64,000 nucleotides of DNA from an uncultured Bacteroidia bacterium (GTDB taxonomy: Bacteria; Bacteroidota; Bacteroidia; Bacteroidales; UBA932): assembly GCA_902785825.1 (NCBI GenBank), contig CACZZZ010000006.1, forward strand, positions 1-64,000. Direction: 5' to 3'. Shown one piece after another: positions 9,139-46,598 of this stretch; position 1 is the first letter of the stretch, and every line of letters begins with the position of its first letter. The position numbers were made by a program, and so were the translations under genes. The notes under the pieces are model-generated. The model saw only the letters and a list, made by a program, of their open reading frames with translations, had not been told where the DNA came from and did no database searches.

Positions 9139-9159
9139 TTGCCAATTATGCTGATAACC

Positions 9160-11436
9160 ATGAGGAAAGCCATATTCCCTTTGGCTTGTGTGCTCGCTGT
9201 AGCCCTGCAAGCCTTCTCGTGCAAGGAAAAAGAACCCGAGATCGTCCAGCAAACCCTGACGGTCTCGCCGTCCAGCCTGTCATTTGAGCCGGAGGACGCC
9301 TCTGCCAAATTGCTGAATGTCTCCTCCAACTCGAATTGGGGTGTCGCCCCCTCGGCGGACTGGATCATCGTGGACAAGGGATCTGGCGACGGAAACGGCT
9401 CGGTCACTGTGAAAGTCAAAGCCAACACCGGCGAGGATCGCACGGGAACTATCATCATAAAAGGGATGAACTCGGCGAACGTGAAGGCCGCCTCTGACGT
9501 GACCGTGCAGGTGAGCCAGAGGGGAAAGAACATAGTAGAGGTTGTCCCCGTTCCAGCCAAATTTGATGGAAATAAAAGGGCTTCAACTACTTATCAGCTT
9601 CTGATATATTCATTCGCCGACAGCGATGGCGATGGGATAGGGGACTTTAAGGGCATTCAGTCCAAACTGGATTACCTCGACGCGTTGGGCGTGACGGCTC
9701 TATGGCTCTCGCCGGCCCATCCGACTTCCTCATACCACGGCTACGACGTGGATGACTATTCGACAGTCAATCCGAAGTTCGGTACCGAGGCTGATTTCAA
9801 GAACCTCATAGACGCTGCCCATGCAAAAGGAATAAAGATCTACATGGACTACGTCCTGAACCATTCCGGGGCAAACAACGCCTGGTTCAAGAGCGTCAAG
9901 GCCAATCCTTCCGGGAGCGAGTTCAAGGACTATTATGTGCTTTCAAAGAGCCCGGACGCTGACGTGGCCGCGAAGGCGATTGACAATTACGCCGGCGCTT
10001 CCTCGCCTGGAATGGGTGCCTGGCATTCACTTGGTGACGGGAATATCGGCTATAAAGGACGCCTCCATTTCAAGGTTGACTGGAGCAAAGCGACTAAGAC
10101 AGTCACTGTAACTGAGACCGATGAAGCTGCCCAATCCTCCAATGCTTCGGCGACCAAGTGGCTCTACATCGGCAGCGCCGGAAATGTGGGTCTTTATGAG
10201 ACTTCCACCAATATATTCGAGATAACCCTCAATGTGGACACTTCCTGGGGCTTCCTTGTGAGGACATCCAAGGATGATTCCTGGCCCGCCGGGACAAAGT
10301 ATGGGGCCAAGGCTGGTAAGAACGTCATAACCTTCGGCGAGCCTCTTGAGCTGGACAACTCCACCGCTGCCGACATCACATTCGGCCAGACGACATATTA
10401 TTTTGCCAGTTTCGACGCCTCGATGCCTGACCTTAATTACGGGCCGTATGAGAACGCTTCGGAATCCCCGTTGTTCAAGGCGATAGCCGCCACCGCCGAT
10501 AAGTGGATCAAGGATTTCGGCGTGGATGGATTCCGTCTGGACGCCGTGGTCTGGGTCTATCAGGCGGTGATAAAGGCCAACCAAAGCTTCTTGTCCCAGT
10601 GGTATGATCACTGCAACGCGACCTACAAGGCAGCCGGTCACTCCGACGACATATTCATGGTAGGGGAGGCCTGGTACGGGAACCATTCCTCAGATGAGCA
10701 GTATTACTACAAGGGGCTTCCGTCCAATTTTGAGTTCGATTATTTCGGTCTTGTGAACGCTACACTGGGCGGAAACGCGACAGGTTATGTCAAGGCTGTC
10801 GAGACGTACCTCAATGACCATAAGGCTCAGAGAGCGGATGCTATCACCTCGATATTCCTGACTAACCATGACCAGGACCGCGCGGCGGAGGCTTTCGGGA
10901 AGAGCCTCGCGAAGGAGAAACAGGCTGCTGCCCTGCTGCTGACCACTCCTGGCAAGCCTTTCATCTACCAGGGTGAGGAACTCGGCTACTGGGGCACCAA
11001 GGCAGGTGGTGATGAATATGTCCGGACTCCGATCCTCTGGGACAAGGCTGGAAAGGACTGTGCCAAGAAGGGTGTGAACAACAAAGTGGATGCTTCCATG
11101 CTGACTTCCTCGATATCTGTCGAGGCTCAAGAAGCGAACAGCGCCTCTTTGCTGAACACGTACAAGACCTTCTCTCAGCTCCGTAACACTTATCCCGCTC
11201 TCGCGGATGGTGAGGTTACGAACGCGAACCTTTCCGGCGCCGCGATAGCCTCGTGGTACATGACTTCTTCTGATGGTCAGAAACTTCTGGTTATCCATAA
11301 TGTGGCTGGCGCTTCCCGGACAACCACCGTCTCTGACGATATGTCCAAGCCCATAGCTCTGCTCGGAACAGCTTCCTACGAAGGCTCTAACTTGACCCTC
11401 GGAGCCAATTCTTCCGTCATTTTCCAATTGAAATGA
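9160..11436 (+). CDS. SusG-like outer-membrane alpha-amylase (BACON + GH13 with inserted CBM)
   Basis: Endo-acting alpha-amylase that would cut starch at the cell surface. Parts: lipoprotein signal MRKAIFPLACVLAVALQAFSC, a BACON domain (about residues 31-125; SNSNWGVAPSADWI), then a GH13 barrel from about 143 (TYQLLIYSFADSDGDGIGD). Domain B is interrupted at about 285-410 by a beta-rich segment (HFKVDWSKATKTVTV ... YYFASFDAS). Its placement matches the CBM58 starch-binding module inserted in SusG. Catalytic residues are all present: nucleophile D461 in GFRLDAV, acid/base E503 in VGEAW, and the transition-state Asp in TNHDQDR. The start was chosen at the ATG that begins the signal peptide; earlier in-frame codons would run into the upstream hairpin. 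Confidence 0.92.
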   Translation: MRKAIFPLACVLAVALQAFSCKEKEPEIVQQTLTVSPSSLSFEPEDASAKLLNVSSNSNWGVAPSADWIIVDKGSGDGNGSVTVKVKANTGEDRTGTIIIKGMNSANVKAASDVTVQVSQRGKNIVEVVPVPAKFDGNKRASTTYQLLIYSFADSDGDGIGDFKGIQSKLDYLDALGVTALWLSPAHPTSSYHGYDVDDYSTVNPKFGTEADFKNLIDAAHAKGIKIYMDYVLNHSGANNAWFKSVKANPSGSEFKDYYVLSKSPDADVAAKAIDNYAGASSPGMGAWHSLGDGNIGYKGRLHFKVDWSKATKTVTVTETDEAAQSSNASATKWLYIGSAGNVGLYETSTNIFEITLNVDTSWGFLVRTSKDDSWPAGTKYGAKAGKNVITFGEPLELDNSTAADITFGQTTYYFASFDASMPDLNYGPYENASESPLFKAIAATADKWIKDFGVDGFRLDAVVWVYQAVIKANQSFLSQWYDHCNATYKAAGHSDDIFMVGEAWYGNHSSDEQYYYKGLPSNFEFDYFGLVNATLGGNATGYVKAVETYLNDHKAQRADAITSIFLTNHDQDRAAEAFGKSLAKEKQAAALLLTTPGKPFIYQGEELGYWGTKAGGDEYVRTPILWDKAGKDCAKKGVNNKVDASMLTSSISVEAQEANSASLLNTYKTFSQLRNTYPALADGEVTNANLSGAAIASWYMTSSDGQKLLVIHNVAGASRTTTVSDDMSKPIALLGTASYEGSNLTLGANSSVIFQLK

Positions 11437-11441
11437 TGCTC

Positions 11442-11576
11442 TGCGGCATGACACTTCATCCCCGAACCGCCTCGCTCCGCTCGGCCCCACCGCTCGCTTC
11501 GCAAAGCGAAGCTCCGGTCCCCCCTCTTACAGTGCCGAGGGTGGCATGGGTTCGGGCGACGAAGTGTCTTGCCGCA
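11442..11576. repeat. Structured repeat element, copy 1
   Basis: The outer arms 11442-11468 and 11548-11576 form a long imperfect stem (TGCGGCA...GAACC against GGTTC...TGCCGCA). They enclose a core of about 80 bp shared with copy 2: GGCCCCACCGCTCGC, an inner hairpin (GCTTCGC-AAA-GCGAAGC), TCCGGTCCCCCCTCTTA, and TGCCGAGGGTGGCA. It begins 5 bp after the SusG-like gene. The arm sequence differs completely from copy 2, yet pairing is kept. Confidence 0.85.
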
Positions 11577-11606
11577 ATGGATAATTGAATCGAATAATCG
11601 TAAGAT

Positions 11607-14600
11607 ATGAAAAGAATAGTATTGTTATTGGCGATTGTCGCGGCAGCGGTGGCGTGCGGTGATAAGAGCAAGAAGGCCACGGTCGAGGCAGGTGACTGGA
11701 CCGAGGATGCCGTCATCTATGAGCTGAACATCCGTCAAGCCACAGCGGAAGGTACCCTAAAGGCCGCGGAGGCTAAACTGCCTGAGCTGAAGGAACTTGG
11801 CGCTGATGTCGTGTGGCTTATGCCGCTATATCCGATCGGTGTCGAGGGCCGTAAAGGCACTCTCGGCTCATATTACGCAATCAAGGACTACTGCGACGTG
11901 AACCCGGAATTCGGAACGCTGGCGGACTTTGATCATTTTTTGGAAGCCGCACATAACCAAGGACTTAAGGTTATTATCGACTGGGTCGCCAACCACACAT
12001 CTCCGGACCATCCCTGGGTCACCGGAAAGGATCCTTCATGGTACGTTCGTGATGCCGAAGGGAAAACTATCGTGGAATACGACTGGACCGATATCGCCAA
12101 ACTCAACTACGCCAATAAGGACATGCGCTCCGAGATGGAAAAAAGCATGCGATTCTGGCTTGACCGTGGGATCGACGGATTTCGCTGCGATGTTGCCTTC
12201 CAGGTGCCTCAGGACTTCTGGGCTGACGTCTTCACCAAGTTCAGGAATGAATATTCCAGGAGACTGTTCTTCCTTGCGGAAGGAGAGGAGGCCTGGCTTC
12301 ATGAGGCCGGGTTTGACTGCACCTACGCCTGGAAGCTGCACCATCTGCTGAACGACATCGCCCAGGGCAAGGCTAATGCCGACAGCCTTGTGAAATATGT
12401 CGAGTGGAACGCCCAGGAGTATGGGGTCGCTGAGCGGAGTCGAAGCGCCCACCGCCTGATGTTCATCACAAACCATGATGAGAATTCCTGGAACGGGACT
12501 GAGTTCGAGAGGATGGGAGACGCTTGGAAGTCGATGGCGGTCCTGTGCTGGACCCTGCCAAATGCCCAGCCGCTGATCTACACCGGTCAGGAAGTTGGTT
12601 ATAATCACCGCTTTGAGTTCTTCGAGAAGGACCCGATGCCGGACTGGCACCACAACGCCGCTACTGATTTCTATGCGGGTTTGAACGCCCTGAGGCATGC
12701 TCATCCGGCTCTATGGAGCGACAATTCGGAATTCCAGGTCCTTGCGGCGACCGATTCCAGCATTTGCTTCAAGAGGACTGCGGAAGGAGATGAGGTGACT
12801 GTCAATGTGCTTCTGAAGGCTCCTTGGACCTGGTCTGTCGAGACTGCGGACTCAAAGGTGGCAAGGGTTGAGCCTCCGTGCTGGTGGACCGGGATGAAGA
12901 CCGACCTGCAGCTTATGATTTATGGAAAAGACATCTCCCAGTGGGACGTCTCTATCGCCGGGAACGGATTGAAAGTCACTGATATTCATAAAGCCGACAG
13001 CCCGAATTATCTTTTTGTGGATGTGGCGGTTAGCCCTTCAGCGAAGCCTGGGACTTACGACCTTGTGTTCACAAAGGGCGACGAGTCTTTCAAAAAGCCC
13101 TATGTCATTGGTGAGAGGGAGCCTGGTTCCGCCGAAAGGACGAGTTTCACGACCTCCGACTTCATTTATCTTATCAATCCGGATCGTTTCGCCAATGCCG
13201 ATCCCGGAAATGACAACACTGACGACACCTTTGAGATCGCCAACCGTAAGGAGCCTTTCGGTCGCCATGGCGGTGACCTTCAGGGAATTATCGACCATCT
13301 TGATTATATCGCCGACCTCGGGGCCACAGCCATTTGGTGCACCCCGCTCCTTATGGACAACCAGCACTGGGAGTCCTACCACGGCTACGCTTGCGGAGAC
13401 TACTATCGCATTGATCCCCGTTTCGGCAGCAACGCCCAGTACAAGGAATATGTCGCCAAAGCCCACGAGAAGGGGCTGAAGGTCATTATGGACATCGTCA
13501 CCAACCACTGCGGCACAGACCACTGGTGGATGAGTGACCTTCCTTTCAAGGACTGGGTCCACCAGTTCCCTGAATATACCAACACGAACTACATATTCCC
13601 GTCGGCAATGGATCCGAACGCCTCGGAGTACGACAGGAATCTTCTCGTGAGCGGATGGTTCGTCCCTATGATGCCAGATATGAATCTGGATAATCCCTTC
13701 ATGCTGAAATACTTCCAGCAGTGGGCGATCTGGTGGACGGAGTATTCCGGCCAGGACGGTCTCCGAGTGGACACATATCCCTACAACGAGAAAGTCCCGA
13801 TGAGCAAATGGTGCGAGGCCGTTTTAAATGAATATCCGAACCTGAATATCGTAGGGGAGTGCTGGGACTCCAACTTCGACCAACTGGCCTACTGGCAGGG
13901 CGGCAACGCCAATGCTGACGGCTTCGATTCCCACCTTCCTTCCATCATGGATTTCCCTCTCCAGGAGGCCATCAACGCTGCTTTGGCAGAGGTGGATCCT
14001 GGCTGGAACCAGGGAATGTTCAGGGTTTATCACGCGCTTGCCCATGATGCCACTTACCACGATCTCTCCAAGATGATGATATTCCTTTCCAACCACGATC
14101 ATTACCGTATTGCCGATGCTTGGAAACTGGATCCTGACAAGATGAAGATCGGCTACACCCTTCTGGCGACGGTCAGGGGCATTCCGCAGCTGTTCTATGG
14201 CGATGAGATGATGTTCGCCACAGGGAAGAACTACAAGAGCGACGGCGAGTTACGCATGGACTTCCCGGGCGGCTGGGCTGGAGATCAGGTCAATTTGTTC
14301 TCCGCTGAAGGTAGAACCGGGGTTGAGGCTGAGCTTCACGATTATGTCAAGACGCTCTTCCAGTGGCGTAAGGGTAAGGATGTGATCCATAACGGCAAGA
14401 CCGTACACTTCATGTCGAGGGACAACACTTACGCCTTCTTCAGGTACAACGACACAGACAAAGTGTTTGTCTATATCAACAACTCTCCTGAGGAGAAGAC
14501 CATTCCTTGGTCGCATTACGCTGAGATCGCCTCTGGCCTCGGCGCCGGAACCAATGTCCTCACCGGCGAGAAGGTCACCATCACCGACAAGACGATTGTC

Positions 14601-14633
14601 CCTCCCTGCACCGCCCTGGTCGTCGAATACTGA
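11607..14633 (+). CDS. Double-GH13 lipoprotein: alpha-amylase fused to a neopullulanase/cyclomaltodextrinase-like enzyme
   Basis: A single 1008-residue chain with a lipoprotein signal (MKRIVLLLAI..., lipobox AVAC) and two complete GH13 barrels. Module 1 (about 30-415) has nucleophile D195 (GFRCDVA), acid/base E225 (LAEGE) and D291 (TNHDEN). Module 2 starts with a cyclomaltodextrinase N-terminal beta domain (about 418-505), then a barrel with D722 (GLRVDT), E751 (VGECW) and D831 (SNHDHY), ending in a C-terminal beta domain. Module 2 resembles SusA-type neopullulanases. The chain likely acts in the periplasm on imported maltodextrins. Residues 275-281 (AERSRSA) are encoded by a copy of a dispersed DNA motif and look like an insertion just before the conserved FITNHDENSW. 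Both modules appear catalytically competent. Confidence 0.9.
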   Translation: MKRIVLLLAIVAAAVACGDKSKKATVEAGDWTEDAVIYELNIRQATAEGTLKAAEAKLPELKELGADVVWLMPLYPIGVEGRKGTLGSYYAIKDYCDVNPEFGTLADFDHFLEAAHNQGLKVIIDWVANHTSPDHPWVTGKDPSWYVRDAEGKTIVEYDWTDIAKLNYANKDMRSEMEKSMRFWLDRGIDGFRCDVAFQVPQDFWADVFTKFRNEYSRRLFFLAEGEEAWLHEAGFDCTYAWKLHHLLNDIAQGKANADSLVKYVEWNAQEYGVAERSRSAHRLMFITNHDENSWNGTEFERMGDAWKSMAVLCWTLPNAQPLIYTGQEVGYNHRFEFFEKDPMPDWHHNAATDFYAGLNALRHAHPALWSDNSEFQVLAATDSSICFKRTAEGDEVTVNVLLKAPWTWSVETADSKVARVEPPCWWTGMKTDLQLMIYGKDISQWDVSIAGNGLKVTDIHKADSPNYLFVDVAVSPSAKPGTYDLVFTKGDESFKKPYVIGEREPGSAERTSFTTSDFIYLINPDRFANADPGNDNTDDTFEIANRKEPFGRHGGDLQGIIDHLDYIADLGATAIWCTPLLMDNQHWESYHGYACGDYYRIDPRFGSNAQYKEYVAKAHEKGLKVIMDIVTNHCGTDHWWMSDLPFKDWVHQFPEYTNTNYIFPSAMDPNASEYDRNLLVSGWFVPMMPDMNLDNPFMLKYFQQWAIWWTEYSGQDGLRVDTYPYNEKVPMSKWCEAVLNEYPNLNIVGECWDSNFDQLAYWQGGNANADGFDSHLPSIMDFPLQEAINAALAEVDPGWNQGMFRVYHALAHDATYHDLSKMMIFLSNHDHYRIADAWKLDPDKMKIGYTLLATVRGIPQLFYGDEMMFATGKNYKSDGELRMDFPGGWAGDQVNLFSAEGRTGVEAELHDYVKTLFQWRKGKDVIHNGKTVHFMSRDNTYAFFRYNDTDKVFVYINNSPEEKTIPWSHYAEIASGLGAGTNVLTGEKVTITDKTIVPPCTALVVEY
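12428..12448 (+). repeat. Dispersed CTGAGCGnAG-type motif inside a coding region
   Basis: CGCTGAGCGGAGTCGAAGCG matches the dispersed intergenic motif seen at 25923, 36785 and 45405. Here it is in frame within the double-GH13 gene and adds the peptide AERSRSA. Confidence 0.6.
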
Positions 14634-14640
14634 CATCACT

Positions 14641-14775
14641 AGCTGAAGGAACCTGTCACCACCGAGAACCGCCGCTTTGCGGCCCCACCGCTCGCGTCGT
14701 AAGCGACGCTCCGGTCCCCCCTCTTAACGTGCCGAGGGTGGCAGTGGTTCCTGGTGGTGACAGGTTCCTTCAGCT
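14641..14775. repeat. Structured repeat element, copy 2
   Basis: Outer arms 14641-14663 and 14753-14775 are a perfect 23-bp inverted repeat. GAACC (14666-14670) and GGTTC (14746-14750) pair inside it. The core carries the same blocks as copy 1, with compensatory changes in the inner hairpin (GCGTCG-TAAG-CGACGC) and a first hairpin GCCGC-TTT-GCGGC. It fills the gap between the double-GH13 gene and the convergent prenyl synthase gene, and could act as a bidirectional terminator. Confidence 0.87.
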
Positions 14776-14784
14776 ATGGGATTA

Positions 14785-15768
14785 TTACTTCGTGCGGCCG
14801 ATGAGCTTGTCGGCGAAGCGGCGGAGACGCTCGTAGCGGACGCCTTTGCAAGCCTTAGCGGCGGCCTCAAGAGCCTTAGCGTTCAGTTCAAGAATAGTGC
14901 TCTGGGCATCCTCAGCGACACCGAGCTCGGAATAGATTTCCTTGACAGCGGCTATTTTGGCGACTTTTTCCTGGTCCGTCCCGGCAGGCATGGACATGGC
15001 TTTCTTGAGCCTTTCCGCCTGCTCCGGTGAAGCCTTCTCGTAAGCCCGGATAGTCAGCCAACTCTTCTTGGAGTTGACGATGTCACCTCCGATAGGTTTC
15101 CCGAAGACCTTCTCGTCTCCGAAAGCGTCGAGATAGTCATCAGCGACCTGGAATGCAAGCCCGAGGTTGAATCCATAACCGTAGAGCAGGTCGCAGTCCC
15201 TCTTCGGAGCCCCGCCGATCTGTGCACCCATTTTCGCCGCACACGCTATCAGGACTCCAGTCTTGAGACCGATCATATTCATGTACTCCTCCATGGTCAC
15301 GTCATCTCTCGTCTCAAACTCCATGTCGTACTGCTGTCCTTCACACACCTGGGCGGCGGTTCTGGAGAAAAGGGTCAGGACTTCTCCCTGGACCTTCCTG
15401 GGAGCTTTCATGATCCTGGAATAGCTGTCGATGCACATCACGTCGCCGGAAAGGATGGCGGTGTCGGAGTTCCACTTCTTCCAAACAGTGTCCACGCCCC
15501 TGCGAAGAGGCGAGCGGTCCATGATGTCGTCATGAATGAGCGTGAAGCTGTGGAACACCTCGAGTCCGGCGGCCGGCTCAAGAATGCCGGCGCCAATCCT
15601 GTCCTTGTAAAGGGAATATGTCGTCAGGCAAAGCCTGGGTCTCAGGCGTTTCCCGCCGATCTCAATCATGTATCTAAGTGGATCGTAAAGCCCTTTCGGC
15701 TCATTTGTGAAATTGATATTCTCGAACAGGGTCTTGATGGCCTCGTCTATGGTGCTCTGTCTTATCAT
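14785..15768 (-). CDS. Polyprenyl diphosphate synthase (farnesyl/geranylgeranyl type)
   Basis: Condenses isopentenyl diphosphate with allylic diphosphates for quinone or lipid-carrier synthesis, in the cytoplasm. Visible family motifs: GGKRLRPRL, the first aspartate-rich motif in LIHDDIMD, and the second in QVADDYLD, with the following FGDEKVFGKPIGGDI. About 327 residues, normal for short-chain isoprenyl synthases. Chain length cannot be set from sequence by eye. The start MIRQSTIDEA was chosen because the 17 residues before it (MTNFTRNIRD...) are not family-like. The gene faces the GH13 gene and diverges from the MFS gene at 15851. Confidence 0.92.
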   Translation of the reverse strand: MIRQSTIDEAIKTLFENINFTNEPKGLYDPLRYMIEIGGKRLRPRLCLTTYSLYKDRIGAGILEPAAGLEVFHSFTLIHDDIMDRSPLRRGVDTVWKKWNSDTAILSGDVMCIDSYSRIMKAPRKVQGEVLTLFSRTAAQVCEGQQYDMEFETRDDVTMEEYMNMIGLKTGVLIACAAKMGAQIGGAPKRDCDLLYGYGFNLGLAFQVADDYLDAFGDEKVFGKPIGGDIVNSKKSWLTIRAYEKASPEQAERLKKAMSMPAGTDQEKVAKIAAVKEIYSELGVAEDAQSTILELNAKALEAAAKACKGVRYERLRRFADKLIGRTK

Positions 15769-15835
15769 ATTAGTGGAATTGCTTTGTGTGTCCCTTATAT
15801 TTCGCGTAAAGTTAGTCAAAAACCCCGGAATTAGC

Positions 15836-18181: not shown

Positions 18182-18320
18182 GGGAAGAGGGGATGCGGCT
18201 TGGAGCCGCACCCGTGGAGGATCCAGCATCGCCCATTTTGAGGCGGCATTACGGGTTGCCGGGCGTTGTACGGTCTCGTGATCAGCAATTTTGCTGATTC
18301 AAAATCATCCCCCTTTTCCC
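18182..18320 (+). ncRNA. Structured leader before the reverse transcriptase (candidate RNA)
   Basis: GGGAAGAGGGGATG (18182-18195) can pair with CATCCCCCTTTTCCC (18306-18320), closing a ~110-nt interior. Inside are a perfect 7-bp hairpin TGCGGCT-TGG-AGCCGCA (18194-18210), a CGGCA/TGCCG hairpin around 18244-18262, and an ATCAGCAA/TTGCTGAT hairpin (18281-18298). The outer stem shares its 18194-18195 bases with the first hairpin, so these are partly alternative. A flanked RNA next to an RT recalls retron and DRT ncRNAs, but no known class was matched. Confidence 0.45.
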
Positions 18321-18329
18321 TTTTATCGG

Positions 18330-19532
18330 ATGGAAAGCATTATGAGACAGATCATGAGTCAGGGAGTCTGGGACGACTTCCTGGCTCATCGTCTGCGTAA
18401 GGGACGCTTCACCTGGCATTCTTTCGAGGAAGCGGACGACTTCGTGGACTCGGAGTCGTATCTGCCGGTAGTCTCACGCCTTTCTGTCGGGGAGGAACTT
18501 GGAATTCCATTCAAGACCGTCATCAACAAGATGGGGACAGGGAAAAAGAGGGTTGTCTATCATTTCGGCGATCCCGAGATGACAGTCCTCAAACTCATCT
18601 CCCACCTCCTTTACCGCTACGACGGTCTTTTCGCCTCAAATTGCTATGCTTTCCGTAGGGGGAAGAGAGCCTCTGACGCCATATTCAAGTTGAAAAGGGA
18701 AATGAAGGACAGGAAGTTGTGGGCATATAAGGTGGACATCCACGACTATTTCAACTCAATATCCATCCCCGTCCTTCTTCCCATCCTTTCCGGAATATTC
18801 AAGGATGACCCCCAACTGTATTCTTTTTTTGAGAGACTTCTCTCGGATGACAGGGTTATGTCGGGTGGCCAGGTGATCCGGGAGCGGAGAGGAGTGATGG
18901 CCGGAACCCCTACGGCACCATTCCTCGCTAATGTCTATCTGATGGAGGTGGACCATCATTTCGAGAAGGAAGGAGTCGTCTATGCCAGATATTCGGACGA
19001 CATACTGATACTCTCTGATTCTGAAGAAGAACTGGCGGCAAGAAAGGACGAGCTGTCGGACTTTTTCAAGAAATATTATCTCACGGTCAACCCGGCGAAA
19101 GAACATGTTTACGCCCCAGGGGAAGCTATTGATTTTCTGGGCTTTAGCCTTGACGGATCCAGAATTGATGTCTCGAAGGCGACCTTGATGAAGATGAAGG
19201 GCAAGATCCGCCGCAAGGCCCGTTCCCTCCACAGGTGGGTTTCCAAGACGGGCAAAGATCCGGTCCTGGCTATGAAGGCTCTGATCAATACTTTCAACCG
19301 GAAGTTCTTTGAGGAGGGAGACCCCGACACGCTCTCATGGTCGAGATGGTTTTTCCCGGTGATCAACTCGGCGGAAGGCCTCAGAGAAATAGACCATTAT
19401 CTTCAGGACAACATTCGTTTCCTATCGACCGGGAAGCATAACAAAGCCAACTACCGGGCCAGTTACGAGGATCTCAAGTCTCTCGGCTACCGTAGCCTTG
19501 TCCATGAATATCACAAGTTTCGTCAAAAATAG
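18330..19532 (+). CDS. Stand-alone reverse transcriptase
   Basis: A 400-residue RNA-directed DNA polymerase without maturase or endonuclease domains. The fingers/palm carry D136 (WAYKVDIHDYF), GTPTAP at 192-197, the catalytic YSDD box at 221-224 (YARYSDDILIL), VNPAKEHV at 253-260 and FLGFSL at 269-274. A helical C-terminal region (about 285-400) includes GKIRRKARSLHRW, FNRKFF, RWFFPVIN and a conserved-looking GYRSLVHEYHKF end. It lacks the VTG element of retron RTs, so it is not a standard retron; it looks like a gut Firmicutes/Bacteroidota 'unknown group' RT. The start at 18330 was picked because upstream in-frame codons run through the leader hairpin; 18342 is possible. Defence, or RNA-templated synthesis from the leader, is conjecture. 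Confidence 0.88.
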   Translation: MESIMRQIMSQGVWDDFLAHRLRKGRFTWHSFEEADDFVDSESYLPVVSRLSVGEELGIPFKTVINKMGTGKKRVVYHFGDPEMTVLKLISHLLYRYDGLFASNCYAFRRGKRASDAIFKLKREMKDRKLWAYKVDIHDYFNSISIPVLLPILSGIFKDDPQLYSFFERLLSDDRVMSGGQVIRERRGVMAGTPTAPFLANVYLMEVDHHFEKEGVVYARYSDDILILSDSEEELAARKDELSDFFKKYYLTVNPAKEHVYAPGEAIDFLGFSLDGSRIDVSKATLMKMKGKIRRKARSLHRWVSKTGKDPVLAMKALINTFNRKFFEEGDPDTLSWSRWFFPVINSAEGLREIDHYLQDNIRFLSTGKHNKANYRASYEDLKSLGYRSLVHEYHKFRQK

Positions 19533-46285: not shown

Positions 46286-46598
46286 TATCTTTGCGCTTGC
46301 ATCAAGAGCGCTCCTATGAGGAGCCGCCAACCGAGCAGCCAGAAGCCACGGTGGCAAAGCGATGCGGATTGTTCAACATCAAAAAAAGTATGGTACCATG
46401 GAAAAGCATCGCTTGTACAGGGCAATAGTTGCCTTGGGCTTTCGGGCAAGGTCTAATTATAGGGTGGGGACCATGCCCGGGGAGGTGGGCTTTGAGGGCA
46501 TTCTGAGGCCGAATATGTGGGCAAGGTCGAGGGCATCAAGTTAGACCTTGCCCGGCCGGTATGGAAAACAAAAGCACCGGAAAATCCGGTGCTTTTTT
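46286..46598 (+). ncRNA. Candidate independent structured non-coding RNA
   Basis: Promoter box TATCTTTG (46286-46293). Helix GCATC (46299-46303)/GATGC (46361-46365) closes a region with CTCCT-ATG-AGGAG (46311-46323) and GCCAC-GGTGGC (46346-46355). AAGCGATGC (46357-46365) can instead pair with GCATCGCTT (46406-46414). Next are a GGCAA-TAG-TTGCC hairpin (46421-46433) and a perfect 13-bp inverted repeat (46444-46456/46541-46553), then the terminator at 46571-46597. The first 70 nt carry ATCAAGAG, CCAACC and GGTGGCAAA in SAM-I-like order, without the full consensus. No convincing protein gene lies inside; short frames only. Confidence 0.5.
46571..46597. terminator. Bidirectional hairpin terminator
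   Basis: AAAGCACCGG and CCGGTGCTTT form a perfect stem with T runs on both strands. It ends tRNA-Val transcription (minus) and the candidate RNA (plus). Confidence 0.85.

Follow-up and report, generated by a model that had tools for sequence, protein, structure and literature searches.

The window, i.e., the whole stretch of 64,000 nucleotides that was analyzed, contains two hairpin elements, each of which follows a gene of the GH13 family. The first gene (positions 9139-11436, plus strand) is SusG-like, lies upstream of copy 1 and is not part of the element. The second gene (11607-14633, plus strand) is cyclomaltodextrinase-like and occupies the space between copies 1 and 2. Copy 2 is flanked on its other side by a polyprenyl synthetase gene on the minus strand (14785-15819), and it is thus located between two convergent genes. 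Copy 1 consists of a left outer arm (11442-11468, plus strand), a conserved core (11469-11548, plus strand) and a right outer arm (11549-11576, plus strand), which pairs with the left one. The core is composed of hairpin 1, GGCCCCACC, an apical hairpin, GGTCCCCCCTCTTACAG and GCCGAGGGTGGC. The respective parts of copy 2, also on the plus strand, are found at 14640-14663, 14664-14752 and 14753-14776. Its hairpin 1, CCGCCGCTTTGCGGCC, is of a short, frame-breaking type that is typical of intergenic copies.

The cores of the two copies match in two blocks with 90-91% identity, and the outer arms are unrelated. Nevertheless, the arms of each copy pair with one another, i.e., about 24 of 27 positions are paired in copy 1, and 24 perfect pairs are formed in copy 2. 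The predicted folds are very stable, with minimum free energies of -74.5 kcal/mol (z -6.1) for copy 1 and -89.9 kcal/mol (z -9.3) for copy 2, and in both cases none of 200 dinucleotide shuffles was as good. The initial annotation had described two elements with a common core and differing, yet pairing outer stems, and this was confirmed, with coordinates that were right within one or two bases. The location directly behind GH13 genes was also verified, but the association is incidental, because many different, unrelated genes contain or adjoin other copies.

A search around GGTCCCCCCTCTTA revealed about 19 credible copies in the genome of the window (G000), 18 of them with a longer exact pattern, and 26 exact-pattern copies were found in the related genome G101. 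In total, about 160 unique copies were collected, mostly from metagenome-assembled genomes (MAGs). Of 101 genomes that belong to the genus, 19 contain the exact pattern. The proposal of a dispersed, evidently mobile Bacteroidales family was borne out. In GTDB genomes at least 116 stretches contain the pattern, and among the matches listed most are from rumen and some from horse-gut Bacteroidales MAGs. Across the order Bacteroidales, 393 genomes that represent 206 genera were searched, and none outside the genus had the pattern; the viral contigs searched contained zero copies. A variant core, GGCCCCTCCCTCTTA, occurs 16 times in the fetched loci (e.g., L382, L386 and L422), and the base of its apical hairpin shows a compensatory change. 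As the exact pattern misses this variant, the copy numbers are underestimates and are to be read as lower bounds. Inner arms are common within subfamilies, while outer arms are specific to each locus. The family is probably a palindromic repeat of about 100-150 bp that is non-autonomous, is present in multiple copies and belongs to one clade within a Bacteroidales genus.

In contrast to both copies of the window, which are intergenic, 116 of the 159 copies with enough flanking sequence lie inside open reading frames (ORFs, called mechanically) that read straight through the element. In the hosts that were identified, conserved sequence is present on both sides of the insert. For three of them, Fmt, MiaA and DnaX, the assignment is based on NCBIfam profiles. 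A TrmB-type methyltransferase was recognized with the Pfam profile Methyltransf_4, and in this case inserted and uninserted orthologs were aligned. Further hosts, assigned by reading of conserved motifs only, are FtsK, MetH, RecQ, RsmA, RsmF, IspH, AroC, the pyruvate dehydrogenase (PDH) E2 subunit, an aldehyde dehydrogenase (ALDH) and a GH3 enzyme.

The use of reading frames is highly biased. Antisense phase 0 is used 54 times and sense phase 2 is used 48 times, and these two mirror-image frames together account for 102 of the 116 copies. The core is equally free of stop codons in sense phase 1 (111 of 116), yet this frame is used only four times. When one of the two mirror frames is translated, the other is open across the core as well in 97 of 102 cases. 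The used frames encode stretches rich in Gly/Glu/Ser and in Pro/Ala/Ser, while the rarely used frames encode more Arg, Trp and Cys, and we infer that the frame bias reflects what the protein tolerates. Of the copies inside ORFs, 6 of 116 have the short hairpin 1 that breaks the frame, versus 19 of 39 intergenic copies (p 5e-9). In an AlphaFold2 model of the TrmB-type protein of locus L082, the element-encoded residues 199-247 have pLDDT values of 27-44 and are located between better-folded parts; the model is modest, with an overall mean pLDDT of 64 and an alignment of eight sequences. The predicted insert peptides appear to be disordered and placed mostly in loops or linkers. Selfish DNA of this kind could survive within genes because two mirror frames remain open and encode such peptides. 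It might be argued that the insert is instead removed from the mRNA or skipped by the ribosome, like the byps of yeast mitochondria, so that a normal product results. The presence of very stable hairpins in conserved enzymes would fit, but neither bypassing nor splicing needs a conserved frame or freedom from stop codons, both of which are strongly constrained here (102 of 116 in two mirror frames), and we regard this explanation as highly improbable.

Site-by-site comparisons were performed between G101 (RUG12619) and G000, which are about 92-95% identical at the DNA level at most compared sites, and between G102 (RUG579) and G017. In the full set of fetched loci, 38 sites could be recognized as orthologous, and at 24 of them the hairpin was found in both orientations. 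The ortholog pairs comprise 73 with the same orientation and 61 that are flipped. Both copies of the window are affected. The whole hairpin of copy 2 is inverted relative to the flanking genes in L032 and L060, and in G101 the inner arm and the core of copy 1 are inverted. In both genomes the left outer arm of copy 1 retains GGCATG, but the sequence of the inner arm is changed from TTCATCCCC to TTCGTCGCCC; therefore, the exchange occurred inside the arms, within the 8-bp common segment GACACTTC. The change at copy 1 is an inversion between inverted arms and not a new insertion. Misassembly of palindromes in MAGs could mimic such flips; speaking against this, identical runs between the arms of copy 1 are no more than short, and the reading frame is preserved in flipped copies. 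Template switching during replication, or recombination, between the two arms may have flipped the core in place.

Segments that are inverted in place and stay in frame either way round would also be expected for programmed intragenic invertons, in which a site-specific recombinase switches between protein variants. However, many of the hosts are housekeeping genes, and the near 50:50 split of orientations inside ORFs (54 versus 48) is as expected under neutral flipping. The inner arms are shared within subfamilies, but the outer arms differ between loci and therefore offer no evident common site for recombination. Programmed switching by invertons is regarded as very unlikely.

The pairing of the arms was quantified for 146 copies. 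The median alignment score was 39 for the arms of the same copy versus 13 for the arms of different copies, and 98% of the copies exceeded the 95th percentile of the mispaired controls. In ortholog pairs with the same orientation, 605 base pairs were unchanged, 35 had double Watson-Crick changes, 10 were G-U pairs and 47 were broken, several of the latter stemming from doubtful ortholog pairs. One example of a paired change is in copy 2 itself, where an A.T pair is replaced by a G.C pair in L032. At some sites the arms are wholly different between genomes that are about 90% identical (ALDH, E2 and L413/L432). Copying of one arm onto the other would generate perfect, but locus-specific outer stems. 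Complete arm replacement is not fully explained by simple arm-to-arm copying, and something more is needed.

Paired changes are commonly taken as a sign of a functional structured RNA, and a family of such RNAs, or of bidirectional terminators, with a stem under RNA selection, was considered. The stable folds, the paired arm changes and the compensatory change in the variant core are all in line with it. Intergenic copies are also more often found between convergent than between divergent genes (13 versus 2, hand count based on mechanical ORFs), and in a few of them A and T runs lie within the outer stem (L040, L386 and L409). However, most copies lie inside ORFs, in both orientations, and at 24 of the 38 orthologous sites the core has flipped. 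A GC-rich hairpin directly followed by a T run, as in an intrinsic terminator, was seen in none of the 40 intergenic copies, and the suggestion of a terminator family was thus not upheld. A scan against Rfam detected no covariance model at or above its gathering score; the sole match below threshold was to a microRNA hairpin model (37.5 bits versus a cut-off of 197), and membership in an Rfam family was rejected. A role as functional RNA or terminator is therefore unlikely. Template switching at inverted repeats is known to homogenize arms and to invert spacers in coding DNA (PMC8604942), and it is able to generate stems and to keep them intact, with paired changes (PMC8794818). Since paired changes can arise in this way without RNA selection, arm covariation alone is not evidence of a functional RNA. 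Accordingly, the covariation that had been noted for the two window copies is real, but it does not prove a functional RNA, as the core flips at most comparable sites. The unusual trait of the family, a combination of locus-specific yet paired arms with a core that flips, would be expected from template switching, or recombination, between the inverted arms.

Empty and partial sites were analyzed as well. Sites with only the palindrome were found as predicted (L275, L261, L267 and L379), and sites with only one arm also exist. Inner-arm or core remnants derived from the element were detected in a TrmO-like gene (L275), in IspH (L290) and in L378. Because several of the palindrome-only and one-arm sites hold such remnants and have junctions at short direct repeats, they are read as deletion scars. 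Slippage between short direct repeats may thus delete copies and leave scars behind. The sole clean intergenic presence/absence pair is L015/L331, which lies between convergent genes. In this comparison of two genomes, both 22-bp arms are absent from the empty site in G101, and no clean target-site duplication is seen.

These results bear on the idea that the core obtains its stems by inserting into the loops of palindromes that were already present. It would explain the palindrome-only sites and the few intergenic copies that lie inside terminator-like A..T stems (L040 and L409). In contrast, the remnants and the joins at short direct repeats at several of these sites are better explained by loss, the empty site of L015/L331 lacks either arm, and sites inside ORFs would have required perfect prior palindromes within coding sequence. 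Insertion into loops, which had been one of the initial proposals, is accordingly quite unlikely. Two further candidate sites were rejected. AroC (L352/L379) had seemed to be an untouched target site that bears a minute palindrome. G017 also carries the insert, however, and the state of G000 is thus more simply explained by deletion through a TGGT repeat. At Fmt (L280/L281) the insertion might have produced an inverted copy of one flank, but a deletion in L280 is just as plausible. No transposition event was cleanly resolved at the compared sites, and close 'empty' sites inside ORFs resemble deletion scars.

Palindromic repeats that lie in frame within housekeeping genes have been described mainly in Rickettsia. 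To our knowledge, the present family is an undescribed case in rumen Bacteroidales; no earlier account of this repeat was found in the literature, for which an open library was searched. We consider it probable that the family is a selfish, coding-compatible palindromic repeat that works like the Rickettsia palindromic elements (RPEs), and that template switching or recombination between the arms flips its core and homogenizes them. RPEs are likewise palindromic repeats of about 150 bp that are dispersed in several families and are inserted in frame into unrelated genes (PMC10969869, PMC6649704); the repeats described here are multi-copy, have about 100-150 bp and share the in-frame insertion in unrelated genes. 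The likeness is one of way of life, the phylum being a different one and the sequences apparently unrelated. Distinguishing features of the present family are outer arms that are particular to each locus, in-place inversion of the core and the use of two mirror frames. According to PMC6649704, RPEs also lose the identity of their repeats over time, while the arms of the present family stay paired.

Several other systems are similar in part. The coding palindromes of Nematomorpha mitochondria are perfect inverted repeats in coding genes, and template switching has been proposed for their maintenance; however, in that case conserved residues of the host protein are encoded by both arms, and a dispersed core common to the copies is apparently not described for them (PMC6649704). 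Template-switch mutation predicts the homogenization of arms, the paired changes and the inversion of spacers that are seen here, but it has been described as a process at resident repeats and RNA genes and not for a dispersed family (PMC8604942, PMC8794818). Byps of Magnusiomyces mitochondria are palindromic and interrupt protein-coding genes, as is the case here, but according to the summary in PMC6649704 they remain untranslated through translational bypassing, whereas the present repeats keep an open frame. Membership in the class of MITEs was rejected, because shared terminal inverted repeats are absent, i.e., inner arms are shared within subfamilies and outer arms are locus-specific. A clean duplication was not seen at L015/L331, and the fetched loci contained no autonomous or longer relative.

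REP/RAYT systems (PMC3733652) also comprise dispersed small palindromes, but REPs have 20-40 bp and are extragenic, while the present family is mostly found in ORFs. All 19 of the carrier genomes have genes for Y1 transposases, versus 59 of 82 non-carrier congeners (p 0.006, uncorrected for kinship), a co-occurrence that is weak and suggestive only. A host-encoded Y1 transposase of the RAYT type is one candidate for the maker of new copies. The Y1 gene (RAYT-type) in L228 (G000:C5:77756) is bordered by a short repeat of its own, GGCTGGCAGTTAAATAGC, that differs from the present family; together with the dominance of copies inside ORFs, this led to the rejection of REP/RAYT membership. Another small repeat, GTCATCCTGAGCGAAGCGAAGGATCT (ILSEAKDL), is read in frame inside Fmt and in the ORF adjoining the Y1 gene of L228, and further small repeats that are read in frame in proteins were observed in L002, L228, L350 and other loci.

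A more far-reaching explanation dispenses with a dedicated transposase. It assumes freely flipping coding hairpins in essential genes, so that the host protein switches between two disordered peptides, and both spread and arm renewal by template switching during replication. We regard this as rather unlikely, but if true it would represent a new kind of mobile DNA, with switching on evolutionary or even population time scales. Regarding the probable selfish, RPE-like repeat, translation of the inserts would mean that extra peptides, which depend on the orientation, are present in many annotated proteins of the clade. As many loci can be compared in close genomes and in both orientations, the family offers a natural laboratory for the building, maintenance and inversion of hairpins by template switching. 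It also serves as a warning that flipping loci inside coding sequence can give rise to covarying arms, a feature that is usually accepted as proof of a functional RNA.

Additional elements were observed in the course of the analysis. A second dispersed hairpin repeat, GGGCCGGACAGCCGCC..GGCTGCCCGGACA, is present in G017 and G102 (L419 and L439-L450), with dozens of matches in G102, and at the AroC site of L440 a similar repeat is found where other genomes carry the first family. The window itself contains a match to the SAM-I/IV riboswitch at 46294-46396 (plus strand, 58 bits). Furthermore, an RT-5 RNA of Rfam was detected at 18206-18311 (plus strand, 75.8 bits), just before and slightly overlapping a reverse transcriptase ORF (RVT_1, 18291-19532, plus strand), which resembles the known arrangement of RT-5 and reverse transcriptase.
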